Assembly (NCBI RefSeq): GCF_900114315.1
Contig: NZ_FOSQ01000004.1
Location: 197,725-261,724 of the forward strand
Direction of reading: 5' to 3'
From: Falsiroseomonas stagni DSM 19981
GTDB taxonomy: Bacteria > Pseudomonadota > Alphaproteobacteria > Acetobacterales > Acetobacteraceae
DNA: 64,000 nucleotides
This document shows positions 25,327-44,283 of this stretch, piece by piece (the first letter of the stretch is position 1; each line of letters opens with the position of its first letter). Under the pieces are notes generated by a model, which worked only from the letters and a program-made list of their open reading frames with translations, was not told the origin of the DNA and did not search any database. A program made the translations under genes and the position numbers.

Positions 25327-25868
25327 GGCAGCGGATACTCCTCCAGGAAGGGCTGGTAGTCCGGCTCCACCTCCACGCCGAGCGTCGCCAGCAGCCGCAC
25401 CACGCCGCAGTAATAGGCGATGGTGACGGTGAGGTCGGTGAGGCGTTCGGGATCGAGATGCGGGCGCAGCGCATCGAAGGTCTCGGTGGACATGCCGGGG
25501 CCGTGGAACATCTCACGCGCGCCTTGCAGCACCAGCTTCGCGAGGGGTTCGAGCGCGCTGTCGCCGCCATCGGTCTCGGTCGCGATGGCGCGGATATCGG
25601 CATCGGTGCAGCCGAATTCCTTGCCGATACGCACATGGTGCGACCATTCGTAGGGGCTGCGCGCCAGCCACCCCACCTGCATGATCGCCAATTGCCGCAG
25701 CCGCGGATCCAGCCGGCTGTGGAAGCGGATGAACATGCCGAGGTCGGTGAAGGCGCGTGCCGCGCCGGGGCTGTTGGCCATGACGCGGTTGAGCCAGATG
25801 TCGCGGGCGACGACATCCCGGTGCTCCGGCGGCAGGTCCTTCGCGGTCAGATAGGGCAGGCGGGCCAC
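25323..25868 (-). CDS. carboxymuconolactone decarboxylase (CMD) family protein
   Basis: The 181-residue all-helical protein belongs to the CMD/AhpD-like superfamily, with the core segment YEWSHHVRIGKEFGCTDADI. It lacks the CxxC of AhpD peroxidases, so redox activity is unlikely and a lactone-decarboxylase or structural role is favoured. The GTG start at 25868 sits six bases behind AAGGAG; the frame upstream belongs to the amidohydrolase region. It lies between the amidohydrolase and SDR genes. CMD proteins often accompany amidohydrolase-2 lactonases in protocatechuate-like pathways. Confidence 0.85.
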   Translation of the reverse strand: MARLPYLTAKDLPPEHRDVVARDIWLNRVMANSPGAARAFTDLGMFIRFHSRLDPRLRQLAIMQVGWLARSPYEWSHHVRIGKEFGCTDADIRAIATETDGGDSALEPLAKLVLQGAREMFHGPGMSTETFDALRPHLDPERLTDLTVTIAYYCGVVRLLATLGVEVEPDYQPFLEEYPLP

Positions 25869-25881
25869 GCGGTGCTCCTTC

Positions 25882-26919
25882 TCAGCTGGCGATGCGATAG
25901 AAGCGCGCGGCGTTGTCGTGGAACAGCGCGGCCCGCTCCCACGCCGACCAGGATGCGGTGATGCGCTTGAAGGCGTTCCAGGCGGTGCCATAGGCGAAGC
26001 CCGCCTTGTCCACGGGGAAGTTGCTCTCGAACATGCAGCGCGTGGCGCCGAAGGCTTCCACGCAGGTCTCCACCAATGGCCGCCAGGCTTCCGCCAGGGT
26101 GGCGCTGTCCGGCGGCGCTTCCCGTTCATGCATGGCGAAGCCGAACAGCCGCATGCCGAGGCCGCCGATCTTGAGGTGCACGTTCTGGCAATGCGCGAGT
26201 TCGCGCAGGGCCGCGCCCCAGGCCGCCATCACATGCCGCCGCCGCGTGGCATAGGGGCCGATGCCGATGGCGCCGCCGACATGGTTCAGCACGATCGGCG
26301 TTTCCGGGAAGGCATCGGCCAGGTCGCGCAGCTCTGCGATCTGCGTGTGGTACATCCAGGCATCGAAGCTCAGGCCGAGCGGCGCGAGTTGCGCGAAGCC
26401 CTCGCGGAACCGGGGCTGCAGCATCAGCATGGGCGGCGGCGTCGCGAGCGATCCGCGCGCGGCGGCATCCGGGTGCCAGGCGGCGATGTGGCGGACGCCG
26501 CGGAAACGGCCGCGCCCGGCTGCGATCTGCGCTTCCAGCACATCGCGGATGGAGGCCCCTTCCGTGAGTTCCGCGAAGCCCACGATCCCCGCCGCCACCC
26601 TTGGCCCGCCCAGCGCTGCCGCGCGCTCCGCCATCTCCACCACGAACTCGGTCTCGCCCACCGGCTGGAAGCGCGCCTCCCCGGTGGTACGGTAGGCCGT
26701 GTCGCATTCGATGAAGACGCTGGCGCGGATGTCGTGGCCGCTGGCGGCGTCGACCAGGAAATCGTCGAGGAGATAGCGGCCCCGAGCCTCCCCCCACAGG
26801 TGATGGTGGGGGTCGATGATGGGCAGTCCCGGTTCCAGCGCCGCTTCCCGGTGCCGGGCCAGCCAGTCCGGCCGCACGGCGGGATGCCGCACCGGCGTAT
26901 CGGATGCGGGCTGCGTCAA
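25882..26919 (-). CDS. amidohydrolase-2 family hydrolase (lactonase-like)
   Basis: The 345-residue TIM-barrel hydrolase belongs to the group containing 2-pyrone-4,6-dicarboxylate lactonase and fuconolactonase. The first metal/base motif IDPHHHLWG (about residue 36), VLNHVGG and the late FESNFPVDK with catalytic Asp are visible. The TTG at 26919 follows GGGGAGGA closely and is preferred. The longer GTG start at 26946 would lie inside the TGTCGACA palindrome that probably serves as operator. It is the first gene of the minus-strand operon and presumably opens a lactone or cyclic ester. Confidence 0.88.
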   Translation of the reverse strand: MTQPASDTPVRHPAVRPDWLARHREAALEPGLPIIDPHHHLWGEARGRYLLDDFLVDAASGHDIRASVFIECDTAYRTTGEARFQPVGETEFVVEMAERAAALGGPRVAAGIVGFAELTEGASIRDVLEAQIAAGRGRFRGVRHIAAWHPDAAARGSLATPPPMLMLQPRFREGFAQLAPLGLSFDAWMYHTQIAELRDLADAFPETPIVLNHVGGAIGIGPYATRRRHVMAAWGAALRELAHCQNVHLKIGGLGMRLFGFAMHEREAPPDSATLAEAWRPLVETCVEAFGATRCMFESNFPVDKAGFAYGTAWNAFKRITASWSAWERAALFHDNAARFYRIAS

Positions 26920-26937
26920 GGCGATCCTCCCCTTTTC

Positions 26938-26945
26938 TGTCGACA
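26938..26945. promoter_or_regulatory. TGTCGACA operator site, amidohydrolase side
   Basis: A perfect 8-bp palindrome followed by CTCTTTGCGGG lies 19 bases upstream of the amidohydrolase start. The same palindrome plus TTTTGCGGGG occurs at 38253-38260 before another operon of the island. The GT-nn-AC core suits GntR/FCD regulators. Confidence 0.5.
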
Positions 26946-27071
26946 CTCTTTGCGGGATCAGCCTAGGCGAGGCCCTGTCGGGCGTCGACTCCCCATGGGC
27001 CAGCTTCGGCCTGAAAGGCGCCTGCGCGCCGGGGCGGGATGGTTGACAGGGAAAGGGCCCGCACGCCTAAC

Positions 27072-27079
27072 TGTCGACA
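27072..27079. promoter_or_regulatory. TGTCGACA operator site, alpha/beta hydrolase side
   Basis: A second perfect TGTCGACA in the same 210-base divergent intergenic region, 51 bases upstream of the alpha/beta hydrolase start at 27130. It is 134 bases centre to centre from the partner site, so each divergent promoter has its own copy. Confidence 0.5.
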
Positions 27080-27129
27080 CAAGGGGGAAGCGCCGAGATG
27101 CCGACGATCACCATCCGCGCCCGGGGCGC

Positions 27130-27903
27130 ATGACCGCGATCCCGCTGCATGGCCGCGCGATCGGCGCCGGCCCGCCCGTGATCCTGCTGCATCCCGTGGG
27201 CCTGGATGGCGGCTTCTGGGGCGGCCTGCCGGCGGCGCTGGCCACCGCGCGGCGCGTCGTCAGCCTCGACCTCGCGGGTCATGGCGCATCCCCAGCCGTG
27301 CTGCGGCCCCGGCCGATCGAGGCCTATGCCGATGACGTGGCGCTGGCGATCCGGGAACTCGGTGCTGGCCCTGCCGCGCTGGTCGGCCTGTCCTTCGGTG
27401 GCATGATCGCGCAGATGGTGGCGATCCGGCATCCCGGCCTCGTCTCCGCCCTGGTGCCCTGCGGATGCGGCGGGGATTTCCCGGACCCGGTCCGCCCGAT
27501 GCTGCGCGAGCGCGGCCTGGTGGCGGAACGCGGCGGCATGGCAGCGGTGGTGGACGGCACGATCGAGCGCTGGTTCACCGAACCCTTCCGCGCCGATCCC
27601 GCCGTGCAGCGCGTGCGGGACCGCCTGCTGGCCGATGACGTCGCGGGATGGTCCGCGGGCTGGCACGCCATCGCGGGCCTGTCCGCGACGCCGCACCTCC
27701 CGGCGCTGACGGTGCCGGCACTCGTCATCGCGGGGGAGCGGGACGTGGCGACACCACCGGCCATGTCGGAAGCCACAGTCGCCCGCGCCATCCCCGGCGC
27801 CGCCTTCCAGGTGCTGCCGGGCGCGCCGCACATGATGCAGATCGAAGCGGAGGCCGCCTTCACCGCCGCCATCACCGGCTTCCTGCTGGGCGGGGTGGCA
27901 TGA
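27130..27903 (+). CDS. alpha/beta hydrolase, 3-oxoadipate enol-lactonase-like
   Basis: The 257-residue hydrolase has an intact catalytic set: oxyanion motif LLHPVGLDG, nucleophile elbow GLSFGG (serine), an acid in AGERDVATP and His in GAPHMMQ. PcaD-type enol-lactonases are the closest functional group. The start is ATG 27130. Directly upstream a short frame (ATG 27099, product MPTITIRARGA) ends with a TGA overlapping this start; it may be a coupling leader or a frameshifted N-terminus. It heads a plus-strand operon and overlaps the next hydrolase gene by ATGA. Confidence 0.85.
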   Translation: MTAIPLHGRAIGAGPPVILLHPVGLDGGFWGGLPAALATARRVVSLDLAGHGASPAVLRPRPIEAYADDVALAIRELGAGPAALVGLSFGGMIAQMVAIRHPGLVSALVPCGCGGDFPDPVRPMLRERGLVAERGGMAAVVDGTIERWFTEPFRADPAVQRVRDRLLADDVAGWSAGWHAIAGLSATPHLPALTVPALVIAGERDVATPPAMSEATVARAIPGAAFQVLPGAPHMMQIEAEAAFTAAITGFLLGGVA

Positions 27904-28688
27904 GCCTGCTGCACCATCGCCTGTCGGGCCGCGCCGTCAGGCCGGCGCCGACCCTCCTGCTGATCCATCCGATGGGCGCCTCGCTCGGCTTCTGGGATGC
28001 CTGCCTGCCGGCCTGGGACCCGCATTTCGCCGTGCTGGCCATAGATCTCCGCAGCGCCGGTGCCTCACCGCGTGGTGACACGCCGCCGGGCCTCGACCAG
28101 CATGTCGCGGATATCGAGGCGTTGCGCGCGTCGCTCGGCATCGAGCGGATGGTGCCGGTCGCCTGCGCCGTCGGCTGCATGGTGGCGGCGGCCTATGCCG
28201 CGCGGCATCCCGACCATGTCGCCGCCCTGGTGCTGTCCAACCCGACGCCGCGCACGGCGGAGGCCGCGCGGGCCATGCTGGTGGCGCGCGCCGCCGCGCT
28301 GCGGGCGCATGGCATGGCCGCGATCCTGCCCGGCGCGGTGGAGCGCCCCTTCGAGGCGCAGCCCCGTGACGCGCGCTACGATTCCTACCTCGCCACCTTC
28401 GCGGCGCAGGATGTGGCGGCCTATGCCGATGCGGTGGAAGGCTTCGCCACCGCCGATGCGCGGGCCGACCTGCCGCTGGTGCGATGCCCCACGCTGCTGG
28501 TGCCGGCCGCGCATGACCTGCTGCTGCCGCCCGCGCTGGCGGAGGAGGTGCAGGCGCTGATGCAGCCCGGCCTGGCGCGCATCGCCCTGGATGAGGAGGG
28601 CGCGCATTTCCTGCCCTACCAGCGCCCGGCGGCCTTCGCGGCACGCGTCCTCGACTTCCTCGCCCCGCTCACCCAGCCAGGAGCCTGA
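27900..28688 (+). CDS. alpha/beta hydrolase-fold protein with missing nucleophile
   Basis: The 262-residue protein is a paralogue of the hydrolase just upstream (LLLIHPMGASLGFW; VPAAHDLLLPPA; late His in EEGAHFLPY). Its elbow reads ACAVG at residues 88-92, so alanine 90 replaces the catalytic serine, and the first glycine is also lost. Either it is a catalytically inactive partner of the neighbour, or Cys89 or another residue acts. Coding quality is otherwise normal, with no frameshift. It follows the intact paralogue by an ATGA overlap, so the pair is made together. Confidence 0.8.
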   Translation: MSLLHHRLSGRAVRPAPTLLLIHPMGASLGFWDACLPAWDPHFAVLAIDLRSAGASPRGDTPPGLDQHVADIEALRASLGIERMVPVACAVGCMVAAAYAARHPDHVAALVLSNPTPRTAEAARAMLVARAAALRAHGMAAILPGAVERPFEAQPRDARYDSYLATFAAQDVAAYADAVEGFATADARADLPLVRCPTLLVPAAHDLLLPPALAEEVQALMQPGLARIALDEEGAHFLPYQRPAAFAARVLDFLAPLTQPGA

Positions 28689-28690
28689 CC

Positions 28691-29281
28691 ATGGCGAACA
28701 AGGGTTTCCTCCTCGTCTTCATGAATCCCCCGCCCGCCTTCGATGAGGAATTCAACGCGTGGTACGACAGCGAGCACGTGCCCGAGCGCCTGTCGGTGCC
28801 CGGCTTCGTGACGGGGCTGCGCTACATGAACATCGCCGCCGGCGCGCCGCGCTACCTCGCCATGTATGACCTTGAAGGCTTCGGCGTGCTGGACACGCCA
28901 GAATACCACCGCGTGGCCTATGACAATGCCAGTCCCTGGACCAAGCGCGTGACGGCGCGCGCCCGCGTGCAGCGCTTCGCGGGGGACCAGGTCGGCCCGG
29001 GCCACCCCGTCACCGGCCGCGCGGCCCGCATCGGCATCATCCGCTTTCGCGGCCTGGCGCCGGAACAGGTGGAGGCGGTAAAGGCCGGCATGGCGGCGAC
29101 CTGCCTCGACAGGCCTGCGGTGATCAAGCATCGCGTCCTGGTCGATCCCGGCAGCGGGGCGGGGGCTGATGTGATCGGCTTCATCGAGGCGCGCGCCCCG
29201 ATGCCGGACGCGATCGACCCGGCGCTGTTCGGCAGCGCGGCCGACCATGTGGACCTGGTGGCGCAATACTCGCCGTTCTGA
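28691..29281 (+). CDS. DUF4286-type dimeric alpha/beta-barrel protein
   Basis: The 196-residue protein begins with the recognisable FNAWYDSEHVPERLSVPGF block (about residues 20-38), typical of DUF4286/EthD-like ferredoxin-fold proteins. A second, weaker half follows, suggesting two fused modules. Relatives occur in catabolic clusters, where isomerase or oxygenase-accessory roles have been proposed, but function is unknown. It starts two bases after the upstream hydrolase stop, in the same operon. Confidence 0.75.
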   Translation: MANKGFLLVFMNPPPAFDEEFNAWYDSEHVPERLSVPGFVTGLRYMNIAAGAPRYLAMYDLEGFGVLDTPEYHRVAYDNASPWTKRVTARARVQRFAGDQVGPGHPVTGRAARIGIIRFRGLAPEQVEAVKAGMAATCLDRPAVIKHRVLVDPGSGAGADVIGFIEARAPMPDAIDPALFGSAADHVDLVAQYSPF

Positions 29282-29466
29282 CGGGGCGGATGACGCGAAG
29301 GGTGGGTTTGCGGTAAGCCCTGTCCCGATCCGGGCCGACGCCATGCGGCCCCCGATCCCCCGACCCTTCCCGCGATGACCGGGGGCGCGGGGGCAGGGGG
29401 CACGCGCAACCTCGGCCCTGCGCGGCCACCAGGGGGCGATGGCATGGGGCGGGATGAGTGACGGCG

Positions 29467-30234
29467 ATGCCTGACCATGGGGGGGCTTCCGCCAATAGCG
29501 AACGCTTCCGCGCCACCATCCACCGCGTGCTCTCGCGCGGGGAGGCGCATGCCTCGCTCGTCATCGACATCGCCTGCACCATCGGCGCCGAGATCCTGGA
29601 CGGGCTGCTGCCGCCGGGGCGTGACCTGAATTCCGTGGACCTCGCCCGGCGCTTCAGCACCAGCCGCACCCCGGTGCGGGAAGCGCTGGTGATGCTGGAG
29701 AAGGAGGGGCTGGTGGAGATCCCGCCGCGCCGCCGCCCCCGCGTCGCCATCCATGACCGGGACGAGATCCGGGAGATCTACCGCGTCCGCGCCGCCATGC
29801 TCGGCCTTTGCGCCAGCGAGGCCTGCGAACATGCCAGTGCGGAGGAGCTTGTCGAACTCCGGGACATCGTGACGGCGATGCAGGACGCCGCCAATACCGG
29901 CGACCGCGATGGCTACTACTGGGGCAATGTCCGCTTCCACGAACGCTTCGCCGAACTGGCGCGCAACCGCACGCTGCTGCGGCAGCTGGACAGCCTGGTG
30001 CTGCGATCGCTGCGCTTCCGGCGACGCACGCTGTCCAGCCCCGAACGGGTACGCCGTTCCATCGCCGACCACTCCCGCCTCGTCGTGGCGCTGGAGGACC
30101 GGGACCAGGCGCTGGCTTCCGCCTTGGCGAGTGCGAATGTGCTCGGCGCGCTGCGGATGCTGGAGGCGATGCTGGACGGAGAGGCGCGGGGCGAACCCCG
30201 CGCCGCCGCAAAGCGGCCGATCAGCCGAGGGTGA
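29467..30234 (+). CDS. GntR-family regulator, FCD (FadR-C-terminal) subfamily
   Basis: The 255-residue regulator has an N-terminal winged helix (DLARRFSTSRTPVREALVMLEKEGLVEIPP, about residues 57-86) and an all-helical FCD ligand domain with metal-binding-type His in VRFHERFAELA. ATG 29467 is chosen; GTG 29458 would add three residues. It is the only regulator inside the catabolic island, and its family recognises palindromes with a GT-nn-AC core, so it is the prime candidate to bind the TGTCGACA sites. Its end overlaps the convergent Bug receptor by 14 bases. Confidence 0.9.
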   Translation: MPDHGGASANSERFRATIHRVLSRGEAHASLVIDIACTIGAEILDGLLPPGRDLNSVDLARRFSTSRTPVREALVMLEKEGLVEIPPRRRPRVAIHDRDEIREIYRVRAAMLGLCASEACEHASAEELVELRDIVTAMQDAANTGDRDGYYWGNVRFHERFAELARNRTLLRQLDSLVLRSLRFRRRTLSSPERVRRSIADHSRLVVALEDRDQALASALASANVLGALRMLEAMLDGEARGEPRAAAKRPISRG

Positions 30235-31195
30235 TGCCGGCGTCGCGGATCACCTGCGCCGCCACCTCCCGCTGCCGTTCCACCCAGGCCGCGAAGACCT
30301 CCGTCGGCTGGCCGCCGAGGACGGTGCCGAGCGGCGCCATGCGGGCCAGCACGCCGGGGTCGCGGCACGCTTCCGCCACCGCAGCCTGAAGGCGGACGAT
30401 CACCGGCGCGGGCGTACCGGCCGGGGCGAACAGCCCGTTCCAGTCATCCATGTCGAAGCCGGGGAAGCCGCTTTCCGCCAGCGTCGGCACATCGGGCAGC
30501 GTCGGCAGCCGTTCCGCCCCCGTCAGTGCCAGCGGGCGCGCGCGGCCGGTCTCGATCGGCGCGCGGGCGGTGGAGGAGGTGAGGATCATGCTGTCGATCT
30601 GGCCCCCCATGATGTCCCGCGCCGCATCCGCGCCGCCGCGATAGGGCGCGTGCAGCAGGCGGATGCCCGCCCGCTGTTCCAGCAGCGCCAGCGCCAAATG
30701 CCCCGCGCCCGCGGCCGGGGGCGTGCCGCAGGAGACGCGGCCCGGATTGGCCTTCGCATAGGCGATGAACTCCGCGACGTTCTGCGCCGGGAAGTCCCGC
30801 CGCACCGCCAGCACCTGCGGGAAGCGCGCGGTCTGCGTTACCGGCAGGAAGGAGGTGCGGTAGTCGAAGGGCAGGTCACGCAGCAGCAGCGGGTTGGTGA
30901 TCTGGTTCGCCGCATCGACCAGGAAGGTGTAGCCATCCCGCGCCTGCAGCACGGCGGAGGCCGCGACCACGGCATTGCCGCCGGTGCGGTTTTCCACCAC
31001 CACGTTCTGGCCGAGGATTTCCGCCATCTTCGCCGCCAGCGGCCGCGCGGAACTGTCGCCGCCGCCGCCCGCGGTGAAGGGGATGACCAGGCGGATCGGC
31101 CGCGTCGGCCATTCCCCCTGCGCCCGCGCGCCGCGCGCGATGAAGGGCACGCCGAGGCCGAGGGCCAGGGCAGCGCGCCTGCGGATCTTGGTCAT
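30221..31195 (-). CDS. Bug/TctC-family tripartite tricarboxylate transporter receptor
   Basis: The 324-residue periplasmic binding protein has the signal region TKIRRRAALALGLGVPFIARGARAQ and family motifs WPTRPIRLVIPFTAGGGGDSSAR, ENRTGGNAVVAA, DGYTFLVDAANQ, PYRGGADAARDIM and LAESGFPGFDMDDWNGLFAPAGTP. The start ATG 31195 follows GGGAGGAAA. It is the last gene of the hotdog/CoA-transferase operon, suggesting that operon handles a carboxylate taken up from outside. It is a close paralogue of the receptor at 43270-44250; both end AGITLG. Confidence 0.93.
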   Translation of the reverse strand: MTKIRRRAALALGLGVPFIARGARAQGEWPTRPIRLVIPFTAGGGGDSSARPLAAKMAEILGQNVVVENRTGGNAVVAASAVLQARDGYTFLVDAANQITNPLLLRDLPFDYRTSFLPVTQTARFPQVLAVRRDFPAQNVAEFIAYAKANPGRVSCGTPPAAGAGHLALALLEQRAGIRLLHAPYRGGADAARDIMGGQIDSMILTSSTARAPIETGRARPLALTGAERLPTLPDVPTLAESGFPGFDMDDWNGLFAPAGTPAPVIVRLQAAVAEACRDPGVLARMAPLGTVLGGQPTEVFAAWVERQREVAAQVIRDAGITLG

Positions 31196-31235
31196 GGTGG
31201 TATTTCCTCCCTTTTTGTGTTGGACGCTGCGTCGT

Positions 31236-32408
31236 TCAGCCCACCGCGCCGGCCTGCCGCATCGCGGCGATCTCGGCCTCCGCGTATCCCGCCGCGCGCA
31301 GCAGCCCGTCGGTGTGCTCGCCCTTGTCCGGCGCCGGCAGGGTGATGCGCGCCTCGCTGGCGGACAGCGTGATGGGCGCGCCCACCACGGCGATGGGGCC
31401 GAGCCGCGGATGCCCCACCGTGGCGGCCAGGCCATGCGCCTGCACCTGCGGATCGGCGAAGACCTGCTGGATGTCGTTGATGGGCCCGCAGGCGATGCCC
31501 GCCGCATTCAGCACCGCGACCCACGCCGCGGCCTTGCGCGTGCGCGTCACGGCGGACAGCGCGGTGGTGAAGGCGGGGCGGTTGGCCAGCCGCGCATCGG
31601 CGGTGGCGAAGCGCGCATCCTCCAGCAGATGCGGCGCCTCGATCGCCTCGCACAGCTTGCGGTACTGGCCCTGGCCGGAGGCGCCGATGACGATGTCCTG
31701 GTCCGCCGCGGGATAGACGCCCATCGGCGTGGTGTAGGGATGGTCGTTGCCGGTCTGGCGATAGACCTTGCCCTCCATCAGCCAGGCCGCCGCCTGGAAA
31801 TCCAGCATCGCGACCTGCGCCTGCAGCAGCGATGCCTTCACCCACTGGCCCTGCCCGGTGCGGTCGCGGTCCAGCAGCGCGATCAGGATGCCGATGGCGG
31901 CGTAGAGGCCGGAGGTGAGGTCGGCCAGCGGGATGCCCGCGCGCAGGGGGCCGTGGCCGGGCAGGCCGGTCACGGACATCATGCCGCCCATGCCCTGCGC
32001 CACCATGTCGAAGCCCGGCCGCGCGGCGTAGGGCCCATCCTCCCCGAAGCCGGAGATGGAGGCGTAGACTAGGCGCGGATTCACGGCGCGAAGGTCATCA
32101 TACCCGATGCCGAGGCGATGCTTCACGTCGGGGCGGAAATTCTCCACCACCACATCGGCCGAGGCGGCCAGGCGCTTCAGCACCGCGACGCCATCGGGAT
32201 GCTTCAGGTCCAGCACGATGGACTGCTTGTTGCGGTGCAGGTTCTGGAAGTCCGAGCCATCCCGGGCGCCCGTCATGTCATCCTCGGCCGGGCCTTCCAC
32301 CTTGATGACGGTGGCGCCCCAATCCGAGAGCTGCTTCACGCAGGTCGGCCCGGCGCGGACGCGCGTCAGGTCCAGGATGGTGATGTGGGCCAGCGGCGAA
32401 TGGCTCAT
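31236..32408 (-). CDS. class III (CaiB/BaiF) CoA-transferase
   Basis: The 390-residue family III CoA-transferase moves CoA from a donor thioester to a carboxylic acid. The N-terminal LDLTRVRAGPTCVKQLSDWGA, ENFRPDV, SISGFGEDGPYA and the catalytic-Asp loop GIPLADLTSG are visible, and length is typical. It overlaps the HMG-CoA-lyase-like gene by ATGA. Together with the fused CoA-transferase upstream it gives this operon two independent activating enzymes, which fits activation of a dicarboxylate and recycling of the CoA from its product. Confidence 0.93.
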   Translation of the reverse strand: MSHSPLAHITILDLTRVRAGPTCVKQLSDWGATVIKVEGPAEDDMTGARDGSDFQNLHRNKQSIVLDLKHPDGVAVLKRLAASADVVVENFRPDVKHRLGIGYDDLRAVNPRLVYASISGFGEDGPYAARPGFDMVAQGMGGMMSVTGLPGHGPLRAGIPLADLTSGLYAAIGILIALLDRDRTGQGQWVKASLLQAQVAMLDFQAAAWLMEGKVYRQTGNDHPYTTPMGVYPAADQDIVIGASGQGQYRKLCEAIEAPHLLEDARFATADARLANRPAFTTALSAVTRTRKAAAWVAVLNAAGIACGPINDIQQVFADPQVQAHGLAATVGHPRLGPIAVVGAPITLSASEARITLPAPDKGEHTDGLLRAAGYAEAEIAAMRQAGAVG

Positions 32409-33355
32409 GCCGCCAGCCTGCGCGGCAGCAGGCCGCCCTTCATCACCTTGCCCGGCACGGGATGGCCGAGCATCGATTCCGCCATCTGCGCCGCGCGCAC
32501 CAGCGCGGGCAGGTCGATGCCGGTGGCGATGCCCATCTCCTCGCACATATACGCCAGGTCCTCGGTGCAGATGTTGCCCGCCGCGCCCTTGTGGCCCGCG
32601 AAGGGGCAGCCGCCGAGGCCGCCGATGGAGCCATCGAACTCGCGCACCCCCATCGCCAGCGCCGCCATCGCATTCGCCATGGCGGTGCCGCGGGTGTCGT
32701 GCAGGTGCAGCTTGATGGAGAGGTCGGGCCAGCGATCGCGCATGGTGCCGATCATCCGGCGGATGCGGTCGGGTGTGGCCCAGCCCATGGTATCCGCAAG
32801 CGCCACCTGCTTCAGCGCGGATCCCGCCGCCAGCAGCGCGGCCTCGGCGCGCGCGACCAGGGAGACGACGCGGTCCACCGGCACGTCGCCCTCGAAATTG
32901 CAGCCGAAGGCCGCCATCATGCCGAGGCAGTCCGGCGCCACGCCGGCGGCCCGGTAGCGCGCGATCCAGTCCGGCACATCGGCGAAGGTCTCGTCGATGC
33001 TGCGGTTGGTGTTGCGCTTCACGAAGGCTTCGCTGGCCGTGAGCTGGAGGCGGCCATCAAGGTCCACGGTTCCGACCGCGATGGCGCGGTCGAGGCCGCG
33101 CGGGTTCAGCCACAGCGCGCGATAGGTCACGCCGGGATGGCGGCGGAGGCGGCGGAACACCGCCTCCGTATCCGCCATCTGCGGCACGGCCTTGGGGTTC
33201 ACGAAGGACCCGGCCTCGATCTCCCGCACCCCGGCTTCGGCGATGGCGTCCAGCAGTTCCAGCTTCTGGTCCGTCGTCAGGATCGTGGGCTCGATCTGGA
33301 GGCCGTCGCGCGGGCCGACCTCCATCAGGTGCACGGTCTTAGGCAGGTCCCACAT
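32405..33355 (-). CDS. hydroxymethylglutaryl-CoA lyase-like enzyme
   Basis: The 316-residue TIM-barrel lyase of the HMGL/DRE family cleaves 3-hydroxy-3-methylacyl-CoA thioesters to acetyl-CoA and an oxo acid. Metal and catalytic motifs are EVGPRDGLQIE (about residues 12-22), LHLHDTRGTAMAN and the active-site cysteine loop GGLGGCPFAGHKGAAGN. In leucine breakdown the substrate is HMG-CoA, but here the neighbours are hydratases and CoA-transferases rather than isovaleryl or methylcrotonyl enzymes. A citramalyl-CoA-type or other branched substrate is therefore as likely. Confidence 0.9.
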   Translation of the reverse strand: MWDLPKTVHLMEVGPRDGLQIEPTILTTDQKLELLDAIAEAGVREIEAGSFVNPKAVPQMADTEAVFRRLRRHPGVTYRALWLNPRGLDRAIAVGTVDLDGRLQLTASEAFVKRNTNRSIDETFADVPDWIARYRAAGVAPDCLGMMAAFGCNFEGDVPVDRVVSLVARAEAALLAAGSALKQVALADTMGWATPDRIRRMIGTMRDRWPDLSIKLHLHDTRGTAMANAMAALAMGVREFDGSIGGLGGCPFAGHKGAAGNICTEDLAYMCEEMGIATGIDLPALVRAAQMAESMLGHPVPGKVMKGGLLPRRLAA

Positions 33356-33360
33356 GGCGG

Positions 33361-33861
33361 TCAGCCCAGCACGGCGGGATCGAAGGGGTAGGGCACGGGC
33401 GGGCCGCCGCGGCGCGGCAGCACCACGCGGGCGGTGCCGGGCGTGCCTTCATTGCCCTTCTGGTCGCGCAGCCCGATGTCCAGATCGACGACGCCCCAGG
33501 CGCCGCGTTCCTGCTTCCCCGTCACGCGGCCCCAGGCGGTCAGCGTATCGCCGGGCACGTTCATGCCGCGGAACTGGAAGCCGACCTTCCAGGCCCAGCC
33601 GGTATCGCCGACCCAGTCGGAGAGGAGCTGGATCATGACATGCTGCTTCCAGCTGCCATTCACCATCACGTCCGGCAGCTTGTCGTGCTCGGTCGCGTAT
33701 TTCCAGTCGTAGTGGATGCGGTGCCAATTCTCCATCGCCGCCGACCAGCGCATGATATGCGCGGTGGTCATCGGCCCCTTCACCAGCGTCGGGATGTCCT
33801 GCCCGATCTCGACATCGTCGAAGATGGCGCCTGCCGTGCCGTCCATGGCCGCTTCCTTCAT
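33361..33861 (-). CDS. MaoC-like hotdog-fold protein
   Basis: The 166-residue single-hotdog protein is related to MaoC dehydratases. The hydratase-2 catalytic region appears as AAMENWHRIHYD: the His is kept but the usual Asp is replaced, so activity may require a partner subunit. A glycine/proline-rich tail (PRRGGPPVPYPFD) ends the chain. The stop of the next upstream gene overlaps its start by four bases. It is one of five hotdog genes in this operon and probably forms heteromers with the FAS1-like half at 33858-34388. Confidence 0.8.
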   Translation of the reverse strand: MKEAAMDGTAGAIFDDVEIGQDIPTLVKGPMTTAHIMRWSAAMENWHRIHYDWKYATEHDKLPDVMVNGSWKQHVMIQLLSDWVGDTGWAWKVGFQFRGMNVPGDTLTAWGRVTGKQERGAWGVVDLDIGLRDQKGNEGTPGTARVVLPRRGGPPVPYPFDPAVLG

Positions 33862-34388
33862 CGGAGAATCATCGTGTTGACGGACAGCAGCAGCCGCTCT
33901 CCCGTCTCCGTCTCGTAGCTGTCCTCGATGACGACGAAGACGATCGGCCCGGTGCGGCCGTTGCGCTGGTAGATGTCGGCGTAGCGGCTGCGCAGCACGA
34001 TGCGTTCGCCGGGCCGCGCGTGGCGGAAAAGCTCGTACTCATAGCCGCCATTCATCAGCCGCTTCAGCGGCACCACCACTTCCGGCAGGCCGGGGCGCAG
34101 CGCGCGGTCCACGCCATCGAAGTCGGGGCGATCCATCGCCGCCAGCGGGTCTTCCTGATCCTCCGCGCGGCGATGCGCGTGGACGGGGAAGCCCATCGGC
34201 GCCACCACGCCGCCATAGCGCGCGGCCGCTGCCTCATCCCAGTAGCGCGGCGCGTGGTCCATCACCGCCTGGTGGAAGCGCCGGATCTCGCTGGGCTCCA
34301 CCGGATGGGTCGCGAGCTGGGGCGGGGAGACAGCGCCGATCACCGCCCTCACCGCGGGGGTGATGTAGTCCGGCACCATCTCGCTCAT
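33858..34388 (-). CDS. FAS1-like dehydratase-domain protein (MaoC N-terminal type)
   Basis: The 176-residue protein matches the MaoC N-terminal/FAS1-like dehydratase domain, with HPVEPSEIRRFHQAV, VAPMGFPVHAHRR, LNGG-type MNGGYEYELFRHARPGERI and a terminal LLSVNTMILR. This half lacks catalytic residues and normally packs against an active MaoC half. It is a paralogue of the protein at 37615-38136. The start is ATG 34388, overlapping the upstream MaoC stop. With 33361-33861 or 34385-34858 it would make a complete double-hotdog hydratase. Confidence 0.82.
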   Translation of the reverse strand: MSEMVPDYITPAVRAVIGAVSPPQLATHPVEPSEIRRFHQAVMDHAPRYWDEAAAARYGGVVAPMGFPVHAHRRAEDQEDPLAAMDRPDFDGVDRALRPGLPEVVVPLKRLMNGGYEYELFRHARPGERIVLRSRYADIYQRNGRTGPIVFVVIEDSYETETGERLLLSVNTMILR

Positions 34389-34858
34389 CGCCGGAACAGG
34401 ATCGTGCGCAGCACCGCGCACAACTCCCCCCTCTGGTTCGTGAAGCGGCGCTCGGAGACGACCTGGCCGAGCCTTCCGGACTTGCCGTGCTTCAGCTTCG
34501 CATCGACCATCGCGGTGCGGACCGTGATGACGTCGCCGACGATCATCGGCTCATGGAACTCATACTCATCGGCGCCATGCACGGTCGCCTTCCCGAAGGG
34601 GAAGTCGTGTTCGTAGATGGTGCAGGTGAAGAAATAGAGCCAGAGCAGCGGCCAGGGCGCGACGACGCCGCGATAGCCCCGCGCCTTCGCCGCGGCCTCG
34701 TCGAAGTGGATCGGGTCGAAATCATCCATGCAGAGCGCCATGCGCCGCACGGCGCCAAGCTCCACCAGCGTGGTGACGTCCTCGCCCAGCGGGCCGATGA
34801 GGCTGTCGAGGAAGGCCTGCGCCTCGGCATCCGAGGGCCCGGTCACGACCGCGCTCAT
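34385..34858 (-). CDS. MaoC-family hydratase/dehydratase
   Basis: The 157-residue hotdog protein has the canonical hydratase-2 motif MDDFDPIHFDEAAAKARGY (Asp and His both present) and RGVVAPWPLLWLYFF after it. It is expected to add water across the double bond of a 2-enoyl-CoA such as mesaconyl-, itaconyl- or methylglutaconyl-CoA. It is the best candidate for the catalytic subunit among the hotdog proteins of the operon. ATGA overlaps on both sides show tight co-translation with the FAS1-like half. Confidence 0.87.
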   Translation of the reverse strand: MSAVVTGPSDAEAQAFLDSLIGPLGEDVTTLVELGAVRRMALCMDDFDPIHFDEAAAKARGYRGVVAPWPLLWLYFFTCTIYEHDFPFGKATVHGADEYEFHEPMIVGDVITVRTAMVDAKLKHGKSGRLGQVVSERRFTNQRGELCAVLRTILFRR

Positions 34859-35322
34859 GCTCCTGCTCCCCGACGCGGCATCTCGACAAGGGCGGAGCCC
34901 GGCGTCGTCACCTCGCCCCGCTGGTTGGTGATGGAGCATTCCAGTTCGATGTAGGCGCGGCCCGCATCCTCATAGGTCCGCTTCACCTTGCCGTGGAAAT
35001 GGGCGAGGTCGCGCGGCATGGTGGAGCCGCGGTTCTGGTCGGCGAAGCGCACCAGCCGCGCGTCCCGTCCCATCCAGTCCTTCACGATGGTCAGCAGCCA
35101 GGATGCCATGAGCGGGCCGGAGAGGATGATGCCCGGCAGGCCCTGCGCCTTGGCGATGTATTCGTCGTGGTGGAATTCGGATTCGTAATTGTCGCAGGCA
35201 CCGGCCCAGCGGACCTGATGGCCCACCAGCATCGGCCCCCGCGTCACGCTCGGCAGGTCCTGCCCCTCCCGGAAGTCCTCGAAGAACCGCACCGGCGGCT
35301 CCCGCGTCTCGACCTTCAGCAC
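34855..35322 (-). CDS. MaoC-like hotdog-fold protein
   Basis: The 155-residue hotdog protein begins VRFFEDFREGQDLPSVTRGPM and carries ACDNYESEFHHDEYIAKAQ where the catalytic motif should be: an Asp and two His are present but the spacing is altered. LPGIILSGPLMASWLL follows as in MaoC proteins. It resembles 33361-33861 and may be the non-catalytic half of a second heteromeric hydratase. It lies between the fused CoA-transferase (25-base gap) and the canonical MaoC gene. Confidence 0.8.
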   Translation of the reverse strand: MLKVETREPPVRFFEDFREGQDLPSVTRGPMLVGHQVRWAGACDNYESEFHHDEYIAKAQGLPGIILSGPLMASWLLTIVKDWMGRDARLVRFADQNRGSTMPRDLAHFHGKVKRTYEDAGRAYIELECSITNQRGEVTTPGSALVEMPRRGAGA

Positions 35323-35347
35323 AACCAGGCCCTCCCTTGCCGTTCGA

Positions 35348-37612
35348 TCATCGGATCACCCCCGCCTGCGCCAGCGCCTGCAGGCGCGCGGCATCCAGGC
35401 CGAGGAGGCGGCCGAAGACATCCTCATTGTCCGCACCCAGGCGCGGCACCGGCGCCAGGCGCCCGCGATCGCCGCTTGCCTGCATCCAGGGCAGCGCGAT
35501 GCTCCATCCCCCGCCGTCGACGGGCTGGAACAGGCGGCGCGCCGCCAGATGCGGGTCCTCCACCAGGTCGAAGATCCCGCGCGACCGGGTGGCGGGAATG
35601 CCGGCGGCGCGCAGGACGGTCTCGGCCTGCCGCGCATCCCGGCTGTGGCACCAGGATGCGATCGCGTCCTGTGTCGTGGCGCCGATGACCCGGGACAGCG
35701 CCTGGCGCTGCGCCTCTGTCGTGGCCGACAGCGCCAGCCATTCATCGGGGCCGGCGCAGCGGAACAGGCCGGATGGCGCGCCGGAGAGATCCTCCGCGCT
35801 GCCATTGCGCGGCACGGTCCGCCCCAGCCCCGCATGCAGCAGCGCATCCGGCAGCAGCGCCACCGTGGCCTCCAGCATGGACAGGTCGATATGCGCGCCG
35901 AGTCCCGTCGCCGCGCGGTGCCGCAGCGCCGCCAGGATGGCGAGGCTCTCCCACAGCGAGGTCACGGGATCGGTCCAGGCGGGCATCACGCCCATGGCTT
36001 CCAGCTGCGGATTGGCGCGGCCGATCAGCCCGACGCGGCCGCTGTAGCATTGCAGCAGCGACCCATAGGCCAGCAGGTCACGCTCCGGCCCCTGCCGGCC
36101 GAGGCCGGAGGCGGAGACATAGACGATGTCCGGCTTCACCGCGGCGAGGTCGGCGTAGGAGAGGCCATTCTTGGTGAGCACGCGGGAGGAGAAGTTCTCC
36201 ACCACCACGTCGCTCCGCTCGACCAGGTCGCGGATCAGCCCCTGGCCTCCGGCGGTGGTGATATCGACCGTCGTGCTGCGCTTGTTGTTGTTGATGACGG
36301 CGAACCAGCCGCCGCGCATGGCGAATTCCGCGCGCTGGCTGGATTCGATCTTGATGATCTCCGCCCCCAGCGCGCCGAGCATCTTCGTCGCCATCGGCCC
36401 CGCGACGACCCAGGAGAAATCGACGACGCGGACGCCCGACAGCGGCCGCTGGTGCCGCGCATCCGACAGTGAGGGCGCGGCGGGCGTGGTGTGGAACCGC
36501 GCCGCGCCGTCCGGCTTCGGCCACACCGCCGGCGCGCCGCGCGGCAGTGCCGCGCCGGCGCCATCGCGCATCGCGAAGGGCAGGCCGGGCAGGGGCAGCG
36601 TGCCGCCATCCGCCAGTGCCAGCGGCCGGAAGAAGCCGCGGGCGGCGAGCTGGCGATTGGCCAGCAGGTCGGGCGCCGTGCTGATGGGGAAGCAGGCCAC
36701 GCGCGCGGCCTGCGCGGCTTCGAACACCGGGCGGGAGGCAACGGTCGCGGACCATTCCCGCATAAGCCGCCCGATCTCCGCCGCATGCTTCGTGCGCGTG
36801 GCGCGGGTGCCGCACAGCGCGGCGTCCTTCGCCCAGTCGGGGTCGCCCATCAGCGCGACCCAGCGCGCCCATTGATGGTCCTCACGCGGGGAGACGACGA
36901 TGGTGCCGTCGGCGCAGGGCAGCAGCCAGATCAGCCCGCCGGCGATGGTGATCTCCCGCCCCGGCATGCGCCGGCGGCCGGGGGCGAGCACGCCGTCATG
37001 CAACTCCGCCAGCGCATCCACCAGCATCCAGGCGAAGACATCCTCCGACGCCAGGTCGATCCAGGGCGCCGACGGCCCTGGGGGCTCCGCCAGGGCCGCC
37101 ATGGCGGCATTGGCGGCGACCAGGCCGACCAGCATCGCGGCCTCCCGGTCCGGGCAGCCCAGCGGCGGCGCGGCCTCGGGGTCGGTCACGGGGCATGCCT
37201 GGTGCCAGGCGTAGCCGCCGCCATGCTGCGTGGTGAAGGCGTTGCCCGGGTCGCCCGCGCGCGGGCCGGTCAGCCCATGGGCCGTCAGCACCAGCGTCGG
37301 TGCCCGCGCCGGATCATCCTGCGCCGGCAGCGGCGCACCCGGCGCGGCATCCCGCGCCCAGAGCACCAGCCCCGCCTCCCGCGCCAGCGCCGAAACCTGA
37401 TCGGGCGTCGCCACCACCAGCCGCTTGCCGGCGTTGAGATAGGCGAAGAGCGTCCCCTCCGGCGCCGCATGGCGCAGCGCATCGCCCGGCATCTCCGGCC
37501 GCACTACCTCCGCCCCCAGATCGGCCAGCAGCCGCGCGGCGAAGGCCAGCGAGACATCGCTGCCGAGTTCCAGCACGCGCAGGCCGGCCAGCGGCGCCAG
37601 GGCGGGGGCCAT
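35348..37612 (-). CDS. fused tandem class III CoA-transferase (two CaiB/BaiF domains)
   Basis: The 754-residue protein contains two family III CoA-transferase domains in one chain (about residues 1-375 and 390-754). The second domain is canonical: VRVVDFSWVVAGPMATKMLGALGAEIIKIES, VENFSSRV, VYVSASGLGRQGPE and WTDPVTS with the catalytic Asp. The first is more diverged and lacks the VENF motif, but keeps an Asp in PLGCPDREAAM. Family III enzymes are intertwined dimers, so the fusion probably makes an intramolecular heterodimer with one working site. It starts two bases after the upstream dehydratase-domain gene. Confidence 0.9.
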   Translation of the reverse strand: MAPALAPLAGLRVLELGSDVSLAFAARLLADLGAEVVRPEMPGDALRHAAPEGTLFAYLNAGKRLVVATPDQVSALAREAGLVLWARDAAPGAPLPAQDDPARAPTLVLTAHGLTGPRAGDPGNAFTTQHGGGYAWHQACPVTDPEAAPPLGCPDREAAMLVGLVAANAAMAALAEPPGPSAPWIDLASEDVFAWMLVDALAELHDGVLAPGRRRMPGREITIAGGLIWLLPCADGTIVVSPREDHQWARWVALMGDPDWAKDAALCGTRATRTKHAAEIGRLMREWSATVASRPVFEAAQAARVACFPISTAPDLLANRQLAARGFFRPLALADGGTLPLPGLPFAMRDGAGAALPRGAPAVWPKPDGAARFHTTPAAPSLSDARHQRPLSGVRVVDFSWVVAGPMATKMLGALGAEIIKIESSQRAEFAMRGGWFAVINNNKRSTTVDITTAGGQGLIRDLVERSDVVVENFSSRVLTKNGLSYADLAAVKPDIVYVSASGLGRQGPERDLLAYGSLLQCYSGRVGLIGRANPQLEAMGVMPAWTDPVTSLWESLAILAALRHRAATGLGAHIDLSMLEATVALLPDALLHAGLGRTVPRNGSAEDLSGAPSGLFRCAGPDEWLALSATTEAQRQALSRVIGATTQDAIASWCHSRDARQAETVLRAAGIPATRSRGIFDLVEDPHLAARRLFQPVDGGGWSIALPWMQASGDRGRLAPVPRLGADNEDVFGRLLGLDAARLQALAQAGVIR

Positions 37613-37614
37613 GC

Positions 37615-38136
37615 TCAGCGCAGGATCAGGTTGGTGGTGCAGAGGAACAGCTTCCGCCGTTCCCCGCCGGCGGCGAATTCGTCGTCGATGGTGACGATCA
37701 CCATGGGCCCGCTGCGGCCCTGGCGCTGCTTCACGTCGCGATAGGCGCTGCGGCAGAAGATGCGTTCGCCGAGGCGCGCATGGCTGAAGAATTCGTAGTC
37801 GTATCCGCCATTCAGCACGCCGCGCAGCTTCACCGGCATGCGCGGCAGATGCGGGCGCATCAGGCGCGACTCGCCATCGAATTCCGGGTCGCCATGGCCC
37901 TCGATCGGGTCCCAGTCATCGGCGGCGGCGCGGCGATAGGCATGGACGGGAAAGCCGAGCGGCGCCACCGGCATGTCATGCCGCGGGCCGGTGTAGCCGG
38001 GGCGGTGGCGCGCGTTGGGGTCCATCATCGCGTGCATGAAGCGGCGCAACTCGCTCGCCTCCACGGGGTGGGTCGCCTCCACCCAATCGGACTGCACGCC
38101 GACCAGCGCGCGCGCGGCCTCGGTGACGAGGTCCAT
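37615..38136 (-). CDS. FAS1-like dehydratase-domain protein, first gene of hotdog/CoA-transferase operon
   Basis: The 173-residue protein is a paralogue of 33858-34388, sharing HPVEASELRRFMHAMMD, APLGFPVHAYRR, LNGGYDYEFFSHARLGERI and the ending LFLCTTNLILR. The start ATG 38136 is preceded by AGGAGGAAG; the long frame upstream runs into the divergent promoter and was cut. It opens the minus-strand operon that runs to 30221. Its promoter region holds the imperfect AGTGTCCACACT site at 38188-38199. Confidence 0.85.
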   Translation of the reverse strand: MDLVTEAARALVGVQSDWVEATHPVEASELRRFMHAMMDPNARHRPGYTGPRHDMPVAPLGFPVHAYRRAAADDWDPIEGHGDPEFDGESRLMRPHLPRMPVKLRGVLNGGYDYEFFSHARLGERIFCRSAYRDVKQRQGRSGPMVIVTIDDEFAAGGERRKLFLCTTNLILR

Positions 38137-38187
38137 GCCTTGGCTTCCTCCTGCGCGATGCCTCGAAAGGGCATCGCTGCCTTGCGT

Positions 38188-38199
38188 AGTGTCCACACT
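38188..38199. promoter_or_regulatory. AGTGTCCACACT operator-like site
   Basis: The palindrome AGTGT-CC-ACACT lies 51 bases upstream of the FAS1-like dehydratase gene. It equals the TGTCGACA site except for the central CG changed to CC, and keeps the flanking AGTGT/ACACT symmetry. Confidence 0.4.
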
Positions 38200-38251
38200 T
38201 GGGGTGCGACAGGCGCAAAACTGCCATGCGGCCCTGGGAACCGCAATCTTG

Positions 38252-38261
38252 GTGTCGACAC
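38252..38261. promoter_or_regulatory. GTGTCGACAC operator site
   Basis: A perfect 10-bp palindrome followed by TTTTGCGGGG lies 46 bases upstream of the Gfo/Idh/MocA gene. The tract after it closely repeats that at 26938-26957, so the shared element is longer than the palindrome alone. Confidence 0.5.
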
Positions 38262-38307
38262 TTTTGCGGGGCTGAGCCATGCTCCCCACAACATCGGGGG
38301 AAACAGC

Positions 38308-39300
38308 ATGAGGGTCGCCTTCGTCGGCGCGTCGCATTGGCATCTGCCGCTCTACCTGGAGCCCGCCCTTGCGCTGCCCGGCGTCACCCTGGCCGGCGTG
38401 GCCGATCCCGACCCCGCCGCCGCCCGCGCGATCGGGGAGAGGCTGGGTTGTCCCTCGGACCAGGATTTTCGCGAACTCTGCCGCCGCCAGAAGCCGGATT
38501 TCGTCGTCGCGCTCGGCCGCCATGCGGACATGCCGGACCAGGCGCAGTTCCTGATCGAGGAAGGCATCCCCTTCGCGCTGGAAAAGCCCTGCGGCGTGAA
38601 CCTGGCGCAGGTGCAGCACCTGGCCGCGCTGGCGGAATCGCGGGGCGCCTTCTGCGCGGTGCCGCTTGTGTTCCGCAATGGCGACTTCTTCCGGCTGATG
38701 CAGGACCTTGCCGCCGAGGATGGCGGCGTGCAGCACATGGCCTTCCGCTTCATCGCGGGCTTCGCGCAGCGCTACCTCGACAGCGGCTGCGGCTGGAATC
38801 TTGATCCCGTGCTGGCCGGCGGTGGCTGCATGCTCAATCTCGGCGTGCACTTCATCGACATCGTCCATGCGCTGTGGGGCGATGCGGCACGGCCCGTCGC
38901 GGCGCATTTCTCCAACGCCGCCTGGGGCCATGCGGTGGAGGATTACGGCACCGTCGCCTTCGCCGGGCCGGGCGGCGCGCTCGCGCTGGTGGAGACCGGC
39001 TACCTCTTCCCCGCGCCCACCAGCAATTTCGACCTGCACTTCGCCCTGCGCACGCCGCGCCACTACCTGTTCGTGCAGGACACGGAGACCGTGCACCTGG
39101 TGGCGAATGACGGCACGCGCCGCCTGGTGCGGACCCACACCACGAATGTCGGGCAGTATCCGCCCTTCGTCGCCGATGCGCTGGACCGTGCGCGCCGCGG
39201 TGTGCCGCCGCTGGCGGGGCTGGAGGCGATGCTGCCGGTGATGCGCCTGGCGGAGGAAGCTTATGCGCTGGGCGGGCGCCGCCTGGGGCAGGCCGCATGA
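38308..39300 (+). CDS. Gfo/Idh/MocA-family oxidoreductase
   Basis: The 330-residue NAD(P)-dependent oxidoreductase acts on a sugar, inositol or related polyol. The Rossmann start reads VAFVGASHWH, an altered GxGxxG, and the family's catalytic-lysine motif EKP occurs in FALEKPCGVN (about residue 95). The substrate-domain GGGCMLNLGVHFIDIVHALWG is well conserved. ATG 38308 follows GGGGGAAA. It opens a plus-strand operon with an iron alcohol dehydrogenase, a split transketolase and a Bug receptor, all joined by ATGA overlaps except the last. Confidence 0.9.
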   Translation: MRVAFVGASHWHLPLYLEPALALPGVTLAGVADPDPAAARAIGERLGCPSDQDFRELCRRQKPDFVVALGRHADMPDQAQFLIEEGIPFALEKPCGVNLAQVQHLAALAESRGAFCAVPLVFRNGDFFRLMQDLAAEDGGVQHMAFRFIAGFAQRYLDSGCGWNLDPVLAGGGCMLNLGVHFIDIVHALWGDAARPVAAHFSNAAWGHAVEDYGTVAFAGPGGALALVETGYLFPAPTSNFDLHFALRTPRHYLFVQDTETVHLVANDGTRRLVRTHTTNVGQYPPFVADALDRARRGVPPLAGLEAMLPVMRLAEEAYALGGRRLGQAA

Positions 39301-40388
39301 TCCGCGCCTTTGGCGGCCCGCGCCTCTACCTGCAAGGCCCCGGCGCGGTGCGGGAGATCGGGCCCGTGCTGGCCACCATCACGCGCAGCGCCGCGCTGGT
39401 GGGGGATGCGGATGTGCTCGCGCGCTACGGCACGGTGATCGCGGATGCGCTACGCGGATCGGGCGTCGCCTGCGGCAGTGCGGCGCTGCGGGGGGAGGTC
39501 TCCGACAGCGCCATCGCTGCGCTGGATGCGGCGCTGCCCGCGGATGCCGGCTGCGTCATCGGCCTCGGCGGCGGGCGGTCCATCGATGCCGCCAAGGCCG
39601 TCGCGCTGCGGCGCGGCCTGCCCGTCGTCACCGTGCCGACCGCGGCCAGCAATGACAGCCCGACCAGCCGCATCTTCGTGATGTACCGCCAGGACGGCGC
39701 GCTGGATCGCGTGGAACGACTGCCCCGCAACCCGGAAGCGGTGATCGTCGATACCGAGATCCTGCTGCGCGCCCCGCCCGCCCTGCTGCGATCCGGCATC
39801 GGCGATGGCCTGACCAAGCGGTTCGAGGCCGAGGGATGCGCCGCCGTCGATGGCATCACGCCCCAGGGCACGCGCGCGCTCCGCACCCCCGCCGCCATCG
39901 CAGCGCTGGGGTTCGAGACGCTGATGACGCATGCGGCGCAGGCGATGGCGGATGCGGAAGCCGGCCGTCTGACGCCGGCCTTCGAGGCGACGGTGGAGGC
40001 CGTGATCCTGATGTCCGGCCTGGGCTTCGAGAATGGTGGCCTTTCGCTCGCCCATTCATTGACGCGCGGCTTCACGCGCGAAGCCGCCATCGCGCATTGC
40101 CCGCATGGCGAACAGGTGGCCTTCGGCCTGCTGGTGCAGCTTCAGGCGACGCCGGGTGAAGGGGCGATGCTGCGCCGCCTTATCCCCATCTGCGCCGGCA
40201 TCGGCCTGCCGACACGCCTGCGGGGCATCGGCATCGCGCGCGACGATGTCGCGGCGCTGGACCGCATCGCGGCCGCCACCATGACGGCACCCCACATCAC
40301 CCATCTGTCCGGCCCCGCTCTGACCGCGCCCGCGATCCGCGACGCGATGCTGGCCGTGGATGCCTTGTCCTCGGAGTTGACGGCATGA
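39297..40388 (+). CDS. iron-containing alcohol dehydrogenase, glycerol dehydrogenase-like
   Basis: The 363-residue enzyme is of the GldA group. The cofactor motif GLGGGRSIDAAKAV, the phosphate loop PTAASNDSPTS and the metal ligands in IGDGLTKRFEA (Asp), LAHSLTRGF (His) and CPHGEQVAFG (His) are in place. GldA enzymes oxidise glycerol or related diols with NAD. Next to a Gfo/Idh/MocA enzyme and a transketolase, a polyol or keto-sugar substrate is plausible. It overlaps both neighbours by four bases. Confidence 0.92.
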   Translation: MIRAFGGPRLYLQGPGAVREIGPVLATITRSAALVGDADVLARYGTVIADALRGSGVACGSAALRGEVSDSAIAALDAALPADAGCVIGLGGGRSIDAAKAVALRRGLPVVTVPTAASNDSPTSRIFVMYRQDGALDRVERLPRNPEAVIVDTEILLRAPPALLRSGIGDGLTKRFEAEGCAAVDGITPQGTRALRTPAAIAALGFETLMTHAAQAMADAEAGRLTPAFEATVEAVILMSGLGFENGGLSLAHSLTRGFTREAAIAHCPHGEQVAFGLLVQLQATPGEGAMLRRLIPICAGIGLPTRLRGIGIARDDVAALDRIAAATMTAPHITHLSGPALTAPAIRDAMLAVDALSSELTA

Positions 40389-42201: not shown

Positions 42202-42238
42202 CCACCGACGACCAACGCGTTCGAGGGAGGAAAGAAGA

Positions 42239-44250: not shown

Positions 44251-44283
44251 TGTCGTTATCCTCCCTGTTCTGTTCTTCGGTAT

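Follow-up and report, generated by a model that had tools for sequence, protein, structure and literature searches.

Organization of the locus

The stretch of DNA considered here (the window) spans 64,000 nucleotides (nt) of the Falsiroseomonas stagni DSM 19981 genome and carries a catabolic island of four operons with 4+4+9+5 = 22 genes, assigned as operons from strand and spacing. The operons diverge in pairs from two intergenic regions of ~214 and ~171 base pairs (bp), and all four candidate operators fall within these two regions. Three are exact copies of the palindrome TGTCGACA: O1 (26938-26945, minus strand), O2 (27072-27079, plus strand) and O4 (38253-38260, plus strand). The fourth, O3, is weaker (TGTCCACA, 38190-38197, minus strand). 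A GntR-family regulator with an FCD domain is embedded in the island (29458-30234, plus strand, starting at GTG 29458 or ATG 29467). We propose, with a probability of roughly 0.88, that this protein is a local repressor that would govern the four operons through TGTCGACA.

Operon 1 (23720-26919, minus strand) encodes an Amidohydro_2 protein (lactonase-like), a CMD protein, an SDR and an AroE-like dehydrogenase. Operon 2 (27130-30234, plus strand) comprises two PcaD-like alpha/beta hydrolases (abh1 and abh2), a 196-amino-acid protein and GntR, which would be autoregulated if the genes of this operon are transcribed together. Operon 3 (30221-38136, minus strand) contains five small hot-dog-like proteins (MaoC/FAS1_DH-type), a double CaiB, an HMG-CoA-lyase-like protein, a CaiB and a TctC receptor. 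Operon 4 (38308-43228, plus strand) encodes a Gfo/Idh protein, a glycerol-dehydrogenase-like Fe-ADH, the N and C parts of a split transketolase and a TctC receptor. No other regulator was found among the scanned island genes.

Occurrence of the palindrome

An initial annotation of this DNA had reported three perfect palindromes without further copies in the window, a near-perfect relative at 38188-38199, and the confinement of all these sites to the two divergent promoter regions of the island; each of these observations was reproduced. The three exact copies compare with 0.55 expected per window, and three or more appeared in 2 of 100 shuffles. The near-perfect relative reads AGTGTCCACACT and contains O3 from 38190 onwards. 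Matches to TGTCGACA with one mismatch or better number 22 in the window versus 16.3 expected, and the 18 of them outside the four island sites are unremarkable.

Across the genome (6,384,459 bases in 44 contigs), the exact palindrome occurs 47 times. Among the 44 copies outside the window, 39 lie in predicted genes and five are intergenic, according to a simple home-made gene caller based on the codon usage of 20 window genes, whose single assignments may err. A genome scan for coding copies had been proposed as a check: many copies do lie in genes (39 of the 47), but at an ordinary rate only. This genome-wide rate predicts 0.0027 copies per 385 bp, where three are observed (Poisson 3e-9); the figure is post hoc, and the comparison of orthologous loci therefore carries more weight. 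The five intergenic copies outside the window were considered as distant regulon members, an idea rejected from the surroundings of two of them (L083 and L103), which by reading alone seem to hold response-regulator-type, HD-type and OmpA-type genes and no catabolic operon. Around another intergenic copy (L015), the gene caller gave zero genes.

Conservation at orthologous loci

The sites are conserved upstream of orthologues, a check that had also been called for. A search with GntR returned nine loci, seven of them orthologues at 65-76% identity and two, at 33-34%, that were set aside. At E <= 1e-40, GntR is matched in 10 of 397 family genomes (own included) and, among 385 class-wide genomes, in its own genome only. 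In the left divergon beside GntR, an exact TGTCGACA is present at 8 of 8 loci (the window, L052, L053, L054, L055, L056, L071 and L073), six of which have two copies. The gene facing abh1 is AroE-like in L054, and the facing gene in L052 is abh2. At L077, which encodes a GntR of 53% identity, two exact sites lie beside a 43% relative of the gene for the 196-amino-acid protein.

Relatives of Gfo/Idh were detected at E <= 1e-60 in 8 of the 12 genomes searched. All seven genomes whose Gfo/Idh reaches 63% identity (own included) have an exact site 55-77 bp upstream of this gene, even G367, where the Gfo/Idh operon lies on the opposite side of operon 1. All 12 orthologous regions tested hold the site, with a per-region chance of 0.0003-0.017 estimated by shuffling; the regions of L077 and L139 were bounded with knowledge of the sites. 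Flank identity within a promoter type averages 29-34% (range 15-47%), and the 8-mer is therefore kept against nearly random flanks. The sequence logo listed exact sites only, which makes the invariance of the 8-mer in it a matter of construction; its presence per region is the fair test.

A broken remnant of the island occurs in G006, a genome of the same genus (L048 17374-19997 and L049 1-412). Its GntR match starts at residue 131-134, the DNA-binding half being gone, and abh1 and the amidohydrolase are each incomplete. The 40 kilobases (kb) fetched around this remnant contain no TGTCGACA.

Association of the site with the regulator gene

The amidohydrolase of operon 1, which is matched in 152 of 397 genomes, serves as a control; the control covers the best 30 loci of a much longer list. 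The amidohydrolases at 72% identity or above (7 of the 30) are all in genomes that hold GntR, and all have the exact site. At 55-70% identity, 0 of 23 carry TGTCGACA or any TGTnnACA within 400 bp upstream, L124 and L127 among them having less than 200 bp of upstream sequence. One of these siteless amidohydrolases is a 56% paralogue in G188, a genome with GntR, and another is that of G237. The latter genome was considered as a clean negative control (an operon without GntR) and rejected on three grounds: the contig starts inside the gene for the 196-amino-acid protein, the completeness of the assembly is 78%, and the site is present at the Gfo/Idh promoter.

The GntR/FCD regulator and its known relatives

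Both domains of the regulator score above their cut-offs, with an N-terminal GntR winged helix (PF00392, 2.3e-12) and a C-terminal FCD domain (PF07729, 2.4e-26). The DNA-binding segment (DLNSV-LARRF-TSRTP-REAL--LEKEGLVEI-PRRRPRV) is almost unchanged in orthologues; its helices are near-invariant even in the 53% orthologue of L077, which keeps two exact sites. By the comparative evidence, the operator falls in the GT-Nx-AC class with x = 2. A structure model (mean pLDDT 80.5, 11 sequences) most closely resembles 7u5q, Atu1419, PmiR, McbR and AlkR, with Lar 6ep3 also similar. In this model, six helices follow the winged helix (101-125, 128-146, 150-166, 171-191, 195-213 and 217-244) and the extra FadR helix is lacking, which, together with the VanR-group proteins Atu1419 and AlkR among the best matches, assigns the regulator to the VanR group. 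The usual metal ligands, one Asp and three His, are not all retained: in alignment with PmiR, Asn157 replaces the Asp in all 11 sequences, and the last His is replaced by Asn in nine of them and by Val in the Rubritepida pair. With Asn occupying these positions, the canonical FCD metal site is probably lost. None of 10 NCBIfam equivalogs (PhnR-Burk, CsiR, PdhR and others) reached its cut-off, the best being TIGR03338 with 119 bits against 271.5.

The closest solved structure by sequence is 7xp0, PmiR of Pseudomonas aeruginosa. PmiR (7xp0/7xp1) is taken to be identical to PrpR (PA0797), as PMC13086498 cites one source for both names. PMC9765439 describes PA0797 as a repressor with the predicted motif ATTGTCGACAAT, and the purified protein gel-shifts its own upstream region. 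This motif contains the island core TGTCGACA, and in both systems the regulator gene lies within the operon that is, or would be, controlled. The initial annotation had pointed to the GntR/FCD protein of the island as the probable binding protein, and this choice gains from the largely parallel occurrence of site and gene as well as from the core shared with a studied FCD relative. The two systems differ in other respects. Identity in the structural alignment is 29%, the flanks beyond the 8-mer diverge, and PmiR keeps the Asp and the last His where the island group has Asn and mostly Asn. The scanned island genes include no methylcitrate-cycle (prp) genes, and on this count the island regulator is not a PrpR/PmiR, which controls the 2-methylcitrate operon.

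A second precedent is Atu1419, a VanR-group regulator of the hydroxycinnamate region of Agrobacterium fabrum. As given in PMC7797058, it recognizes the 10-mer palindrome ATGTATACAT, and each divergent promoter has two sites, the second degenerate, bridged by a looping tetramer. The VanR-type FCD fold, the two-site divergon and the degenerate second site are all found in the island. In contrast, the centre of the Atu1419 palindrome is TA and that of the island CG, the target genes differ, and spacings of 190 and 109 bp compare with 63 bp in the right divergon of the island. More generally, FadR-subfamily divergons can have operon-specific double sites of the GT-N2-AC class (Suvorova et al. 2015, PMC4494728), and the island likewise has one site near each operon and a GT-N2-AC consensus. 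The passages of that article consulted do not name the island orthologue group. Among the papers listed by searches of an open-access library, one of them for TTGTCGACAA, none on this regulon was seen. The mechanism is thus familiar, given the precedents of PrpR, Atu1419 and Suvorova et al., and what is new about the regulon is its members and not its type.

Candidate operators and proposed promoter elements

All -35 and -10 assignments were read by eye. The amidohydrolase most likely starts at the TTG at 26919, which is preceded by GGGGAGG; O1, ~18 nt upstream of this proposed start and downstream of the -10-like CCTAGGCT, would therefore sit in its 5′ untranslated region. O2 abuts the -10-like CTAACT (27067-27072), itself 17-18 nt after TTGACA (27043-27048). 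The sequence CCTAACTGTCGACA near O2 recurs in L054 with TTGACA and in L053 with TTTCGACA. The spacing of the two operators ranges from 115 to 167 bp among the six left-divergon loci with two exact sites, a variation that fits operon-specific sites and not one fixed complex.

In the right divergon, O4 lies upstream of Gfo/Idh and includes the -35-like TCGACA (38255-38260), which matches five of the six positions of TTGACA and stands 17 nt before CATGCT (38278-38283). Across genomes, Gfo/Idh promoters have TCGACA 16-17 nt ahead of a -10-like hexamer, which is GATAAC in G228, G385 and G237 and weaker in the remaining genomes. O3 faces operon 3 at 63 bp from O4, a distance of six helical turns at 10.5 bp. 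A second TGTnnACA is found upstream of the Gfo/Idh operator at 62-63 bp in five of seven genomes (63 bp in the window, G440, G367 and G385, and 62 bp in G188) and at 106 bp in G228; none was found near the operator in G237. The trinucleotide CTT immediately follows the Gfo/Idh operator on its 3′ side in 6 of 7 genomes. The extended tail (C)TTTGCGGG, previously presented as an operator feature common to two sites, was dropped because orthologues do not keep it and because it lies on opposite sides relative to transcription (upstream of one operator and downstream of the other).

Proposed mechanism and alternatives

Starting from the positions of the sites, their conservation, their association with the GntR gene and the family of the protein, the following mechanism can be proposed. 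A dimer of the GntR/FCD protein would bind TGTCGACA, with the core TGT-N2-ACA. Lying over or beside the core promoters of the two divergent operon pairs, the occupied operators would block RNA polymerase. Binding of a catabolic acid or a derivative to the C-terminal domain would release the repressor, and all four operons, including that of GntR itself, would be switched on. In the right divergon, the Gfo/Idh operator would double as the -35 region, and the weaker site about six helical turns away would probably receive the second dimer of the same tetramer or of a cooperating pair.

An alternative is activation, or dual regulation, by the same protein at the same sites. It is unlikely, O1 being downstream of the likely -10 element and O2 abutting one (both typical repression positions) and PrpR being a repressor, even if O3 and O4 are placed upstream of or over promoter elements. 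Some FCD regulators act in both directions.

Several observations weigh against the local repressor model. In G237, an exact site is present at Gfo/Idh but none at the amidohydrolase promoter, and GntR was not found in this 78%-complete assembly. The GntR orthologue of L058 (64-65%) has no site beside it; the one copy at this locus is within a weak TctC match at a distance of 5.4 kb, and the locus showed no further gene of the island. The Gfo/Idh of G280 (46%) has no site within 300 bp upstream. Three copies of TGTCGACA occur in 27 loci of GntR paralogues (94,984 bases), against ~0.7 at the rate of the own genome, so that some paralogues may share the core, which is not exclusive to this orthologue group.

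The paralogue copies and the site retained by G237 would also suit binding of TGTCGACA by a protein from another part of the genome, be it a second FCD GntR or some other regulator, with the embedded GntR a mere neighbour. Candidates abound, with at least 22 matches to the island GntR at E <= 0.001 in its own genome (22 of 46 candidates scored), and PrpR uses the same core for different genes. This explanation is nonetheless quite improbable: the sites track the island GntR across genera, even with the 53% orthologue, and two paralogues of 38-40% identity face TGTTTACA sites instead. That the palindromes are chance copies or mere promoter sequence (TCGACA as a -35 element) has a negligible likelihood, since, for all the 47 genome copies that lie mostly in genes and the resemblance of TCGACA to TTGACA, O1 and O2 are off the likely -35 elements yet exactly conserved and the full palindrome is found in 12 of 12 orthologous regions.

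Under the local repressor model, ~22 genes with vague annotations would form a single set, jointly regulated through a defined operator. A broader proposal, tentative and at somewhat less than even odds, is that the island represents a modular catabolic regulon of Roseomonas-group bacteria not previously described. Lactonase-like and PcaD-like hydrolases would feed a CoA-transfer step and hot-dog hydratases, to which this genome adds a lyase. The FCD repressor would work without the usual metal ligands, and the operator would be the -35 box at one promoter, where an auxiliary site in helical phase, at a distance of 63 bp, would allow bridging by a tetramer.

Modularity and the question of a single substrate

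The initial annotation had envisaged about 20 genes as a single regulon for one substrate. The regulon part is upheld by the shared operators of the four operons (22 genes); the single substrate is not, as modules separate. In Humitalea and G264, only the left divergon is present, Gfo/Idh being absent at E <= 1e-60. In Caldovatus (L057), only the right half lies beside GntR and the left operons are missing there; this half has no double CaiB, and LeuC/LeuD-like genes follow the Gfo/Idh operator. G367 has an extra exact site (L071 11064), across which TctC genes face a thiamine pyrophosphate (TPP) enzyme and a formyl-CoA-transferase-like gene. The TPP enzyme resembles acetolactate synthase and oxalyl-CoA decarboxylase, all of these assignments being below curated cut-offs, and a further copy inside its gene (L071 11325) is probably due to chance. 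The same genome has no double CaiB at E <= 1e-150.

Because modules separate and are replaced, a single substrate for all genes is not supported. An inducer common to the four operons is likely; these data do not show a single linear pathway for all island genes. No curated family names a substrate, and the amidohydrolase reaches 65 of 400 bits against an L-fuconolactonase-type family, far under the cut-off. The HMG-CoA-lyase-like match (286.9 bits against a cut-off of 246) led to a branched dicarboxylic acid, in ester or lactone form, as a candidate substrate. This idea is weak because the three orthologous operons seen (L055, L056 and L057) lack the corresponding gene. A search for the substrate by inducer screening is feasible with one protein and the two divergent promoter regions. 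The locus also offers a clean comparative case, in which operons are exchanged behind an operator that is kept amid near-random flanks.

Other features of the island

The 754-amino-acid double-CaiB fusion (35348-37612) has matches at E <= 1e-150 in 3 of 397 family genomes, each of which also carries the GntR orthologue. In G440, a CaiB fragment adjoins the Gfo/Idh gene. Two of the five small proteins of operon 3 are without a Pfam match, and the hot-dog-like label comes from weak NCBIfam matches. The 196-amino-acid protein has zero Pfam or NCBIfam matches; its model (mean pLDDT 85.9, nine sequences) has a ferredoxin-like fold resembling 2pgc and the anthrone-oxidase-like 5f9p. The best match of the two-gene transketolase of operon 4 is the split-chain transketolase 6yak, and the terminal TctC of this operon is assigned from sequence and tblastn similarity only.

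A short upstream open reading frame (ORF), encoding MPTITIRARGA (27098-27133, plus strand), has a stop that overlaps the abh1 start (ATGA). Short ORFs with a Shine-Dalgarno-like sequence and ending with NTGA over the abh1 start recur at 6 of 7 abh1 loci (the window, L053, L054, L056, L071 and L073, but not L055). Their peptides are dissimilar between loci, which suggests translational coupling, a possible role for the ORF of the window at abh1. A comparable layout is seen by eye before the CaiB genes of L050 and L051. At these two loci (L050 7699 and L051 13123), GntR paralogues of 38-40% identity face a CaiB gene (49-51% to the window CaiB) across the TGTTTACA palindrome, which suggests a sister regulator with another centre dinucleotide.

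Beside the island, the minus strand carries a further TctC together with leuB, leuD and leuC (43270-47430), without an exact operator. A tRNA-Lys gene (23586-23661) immediately borders the island on its left; tRNA genes are common integration points.

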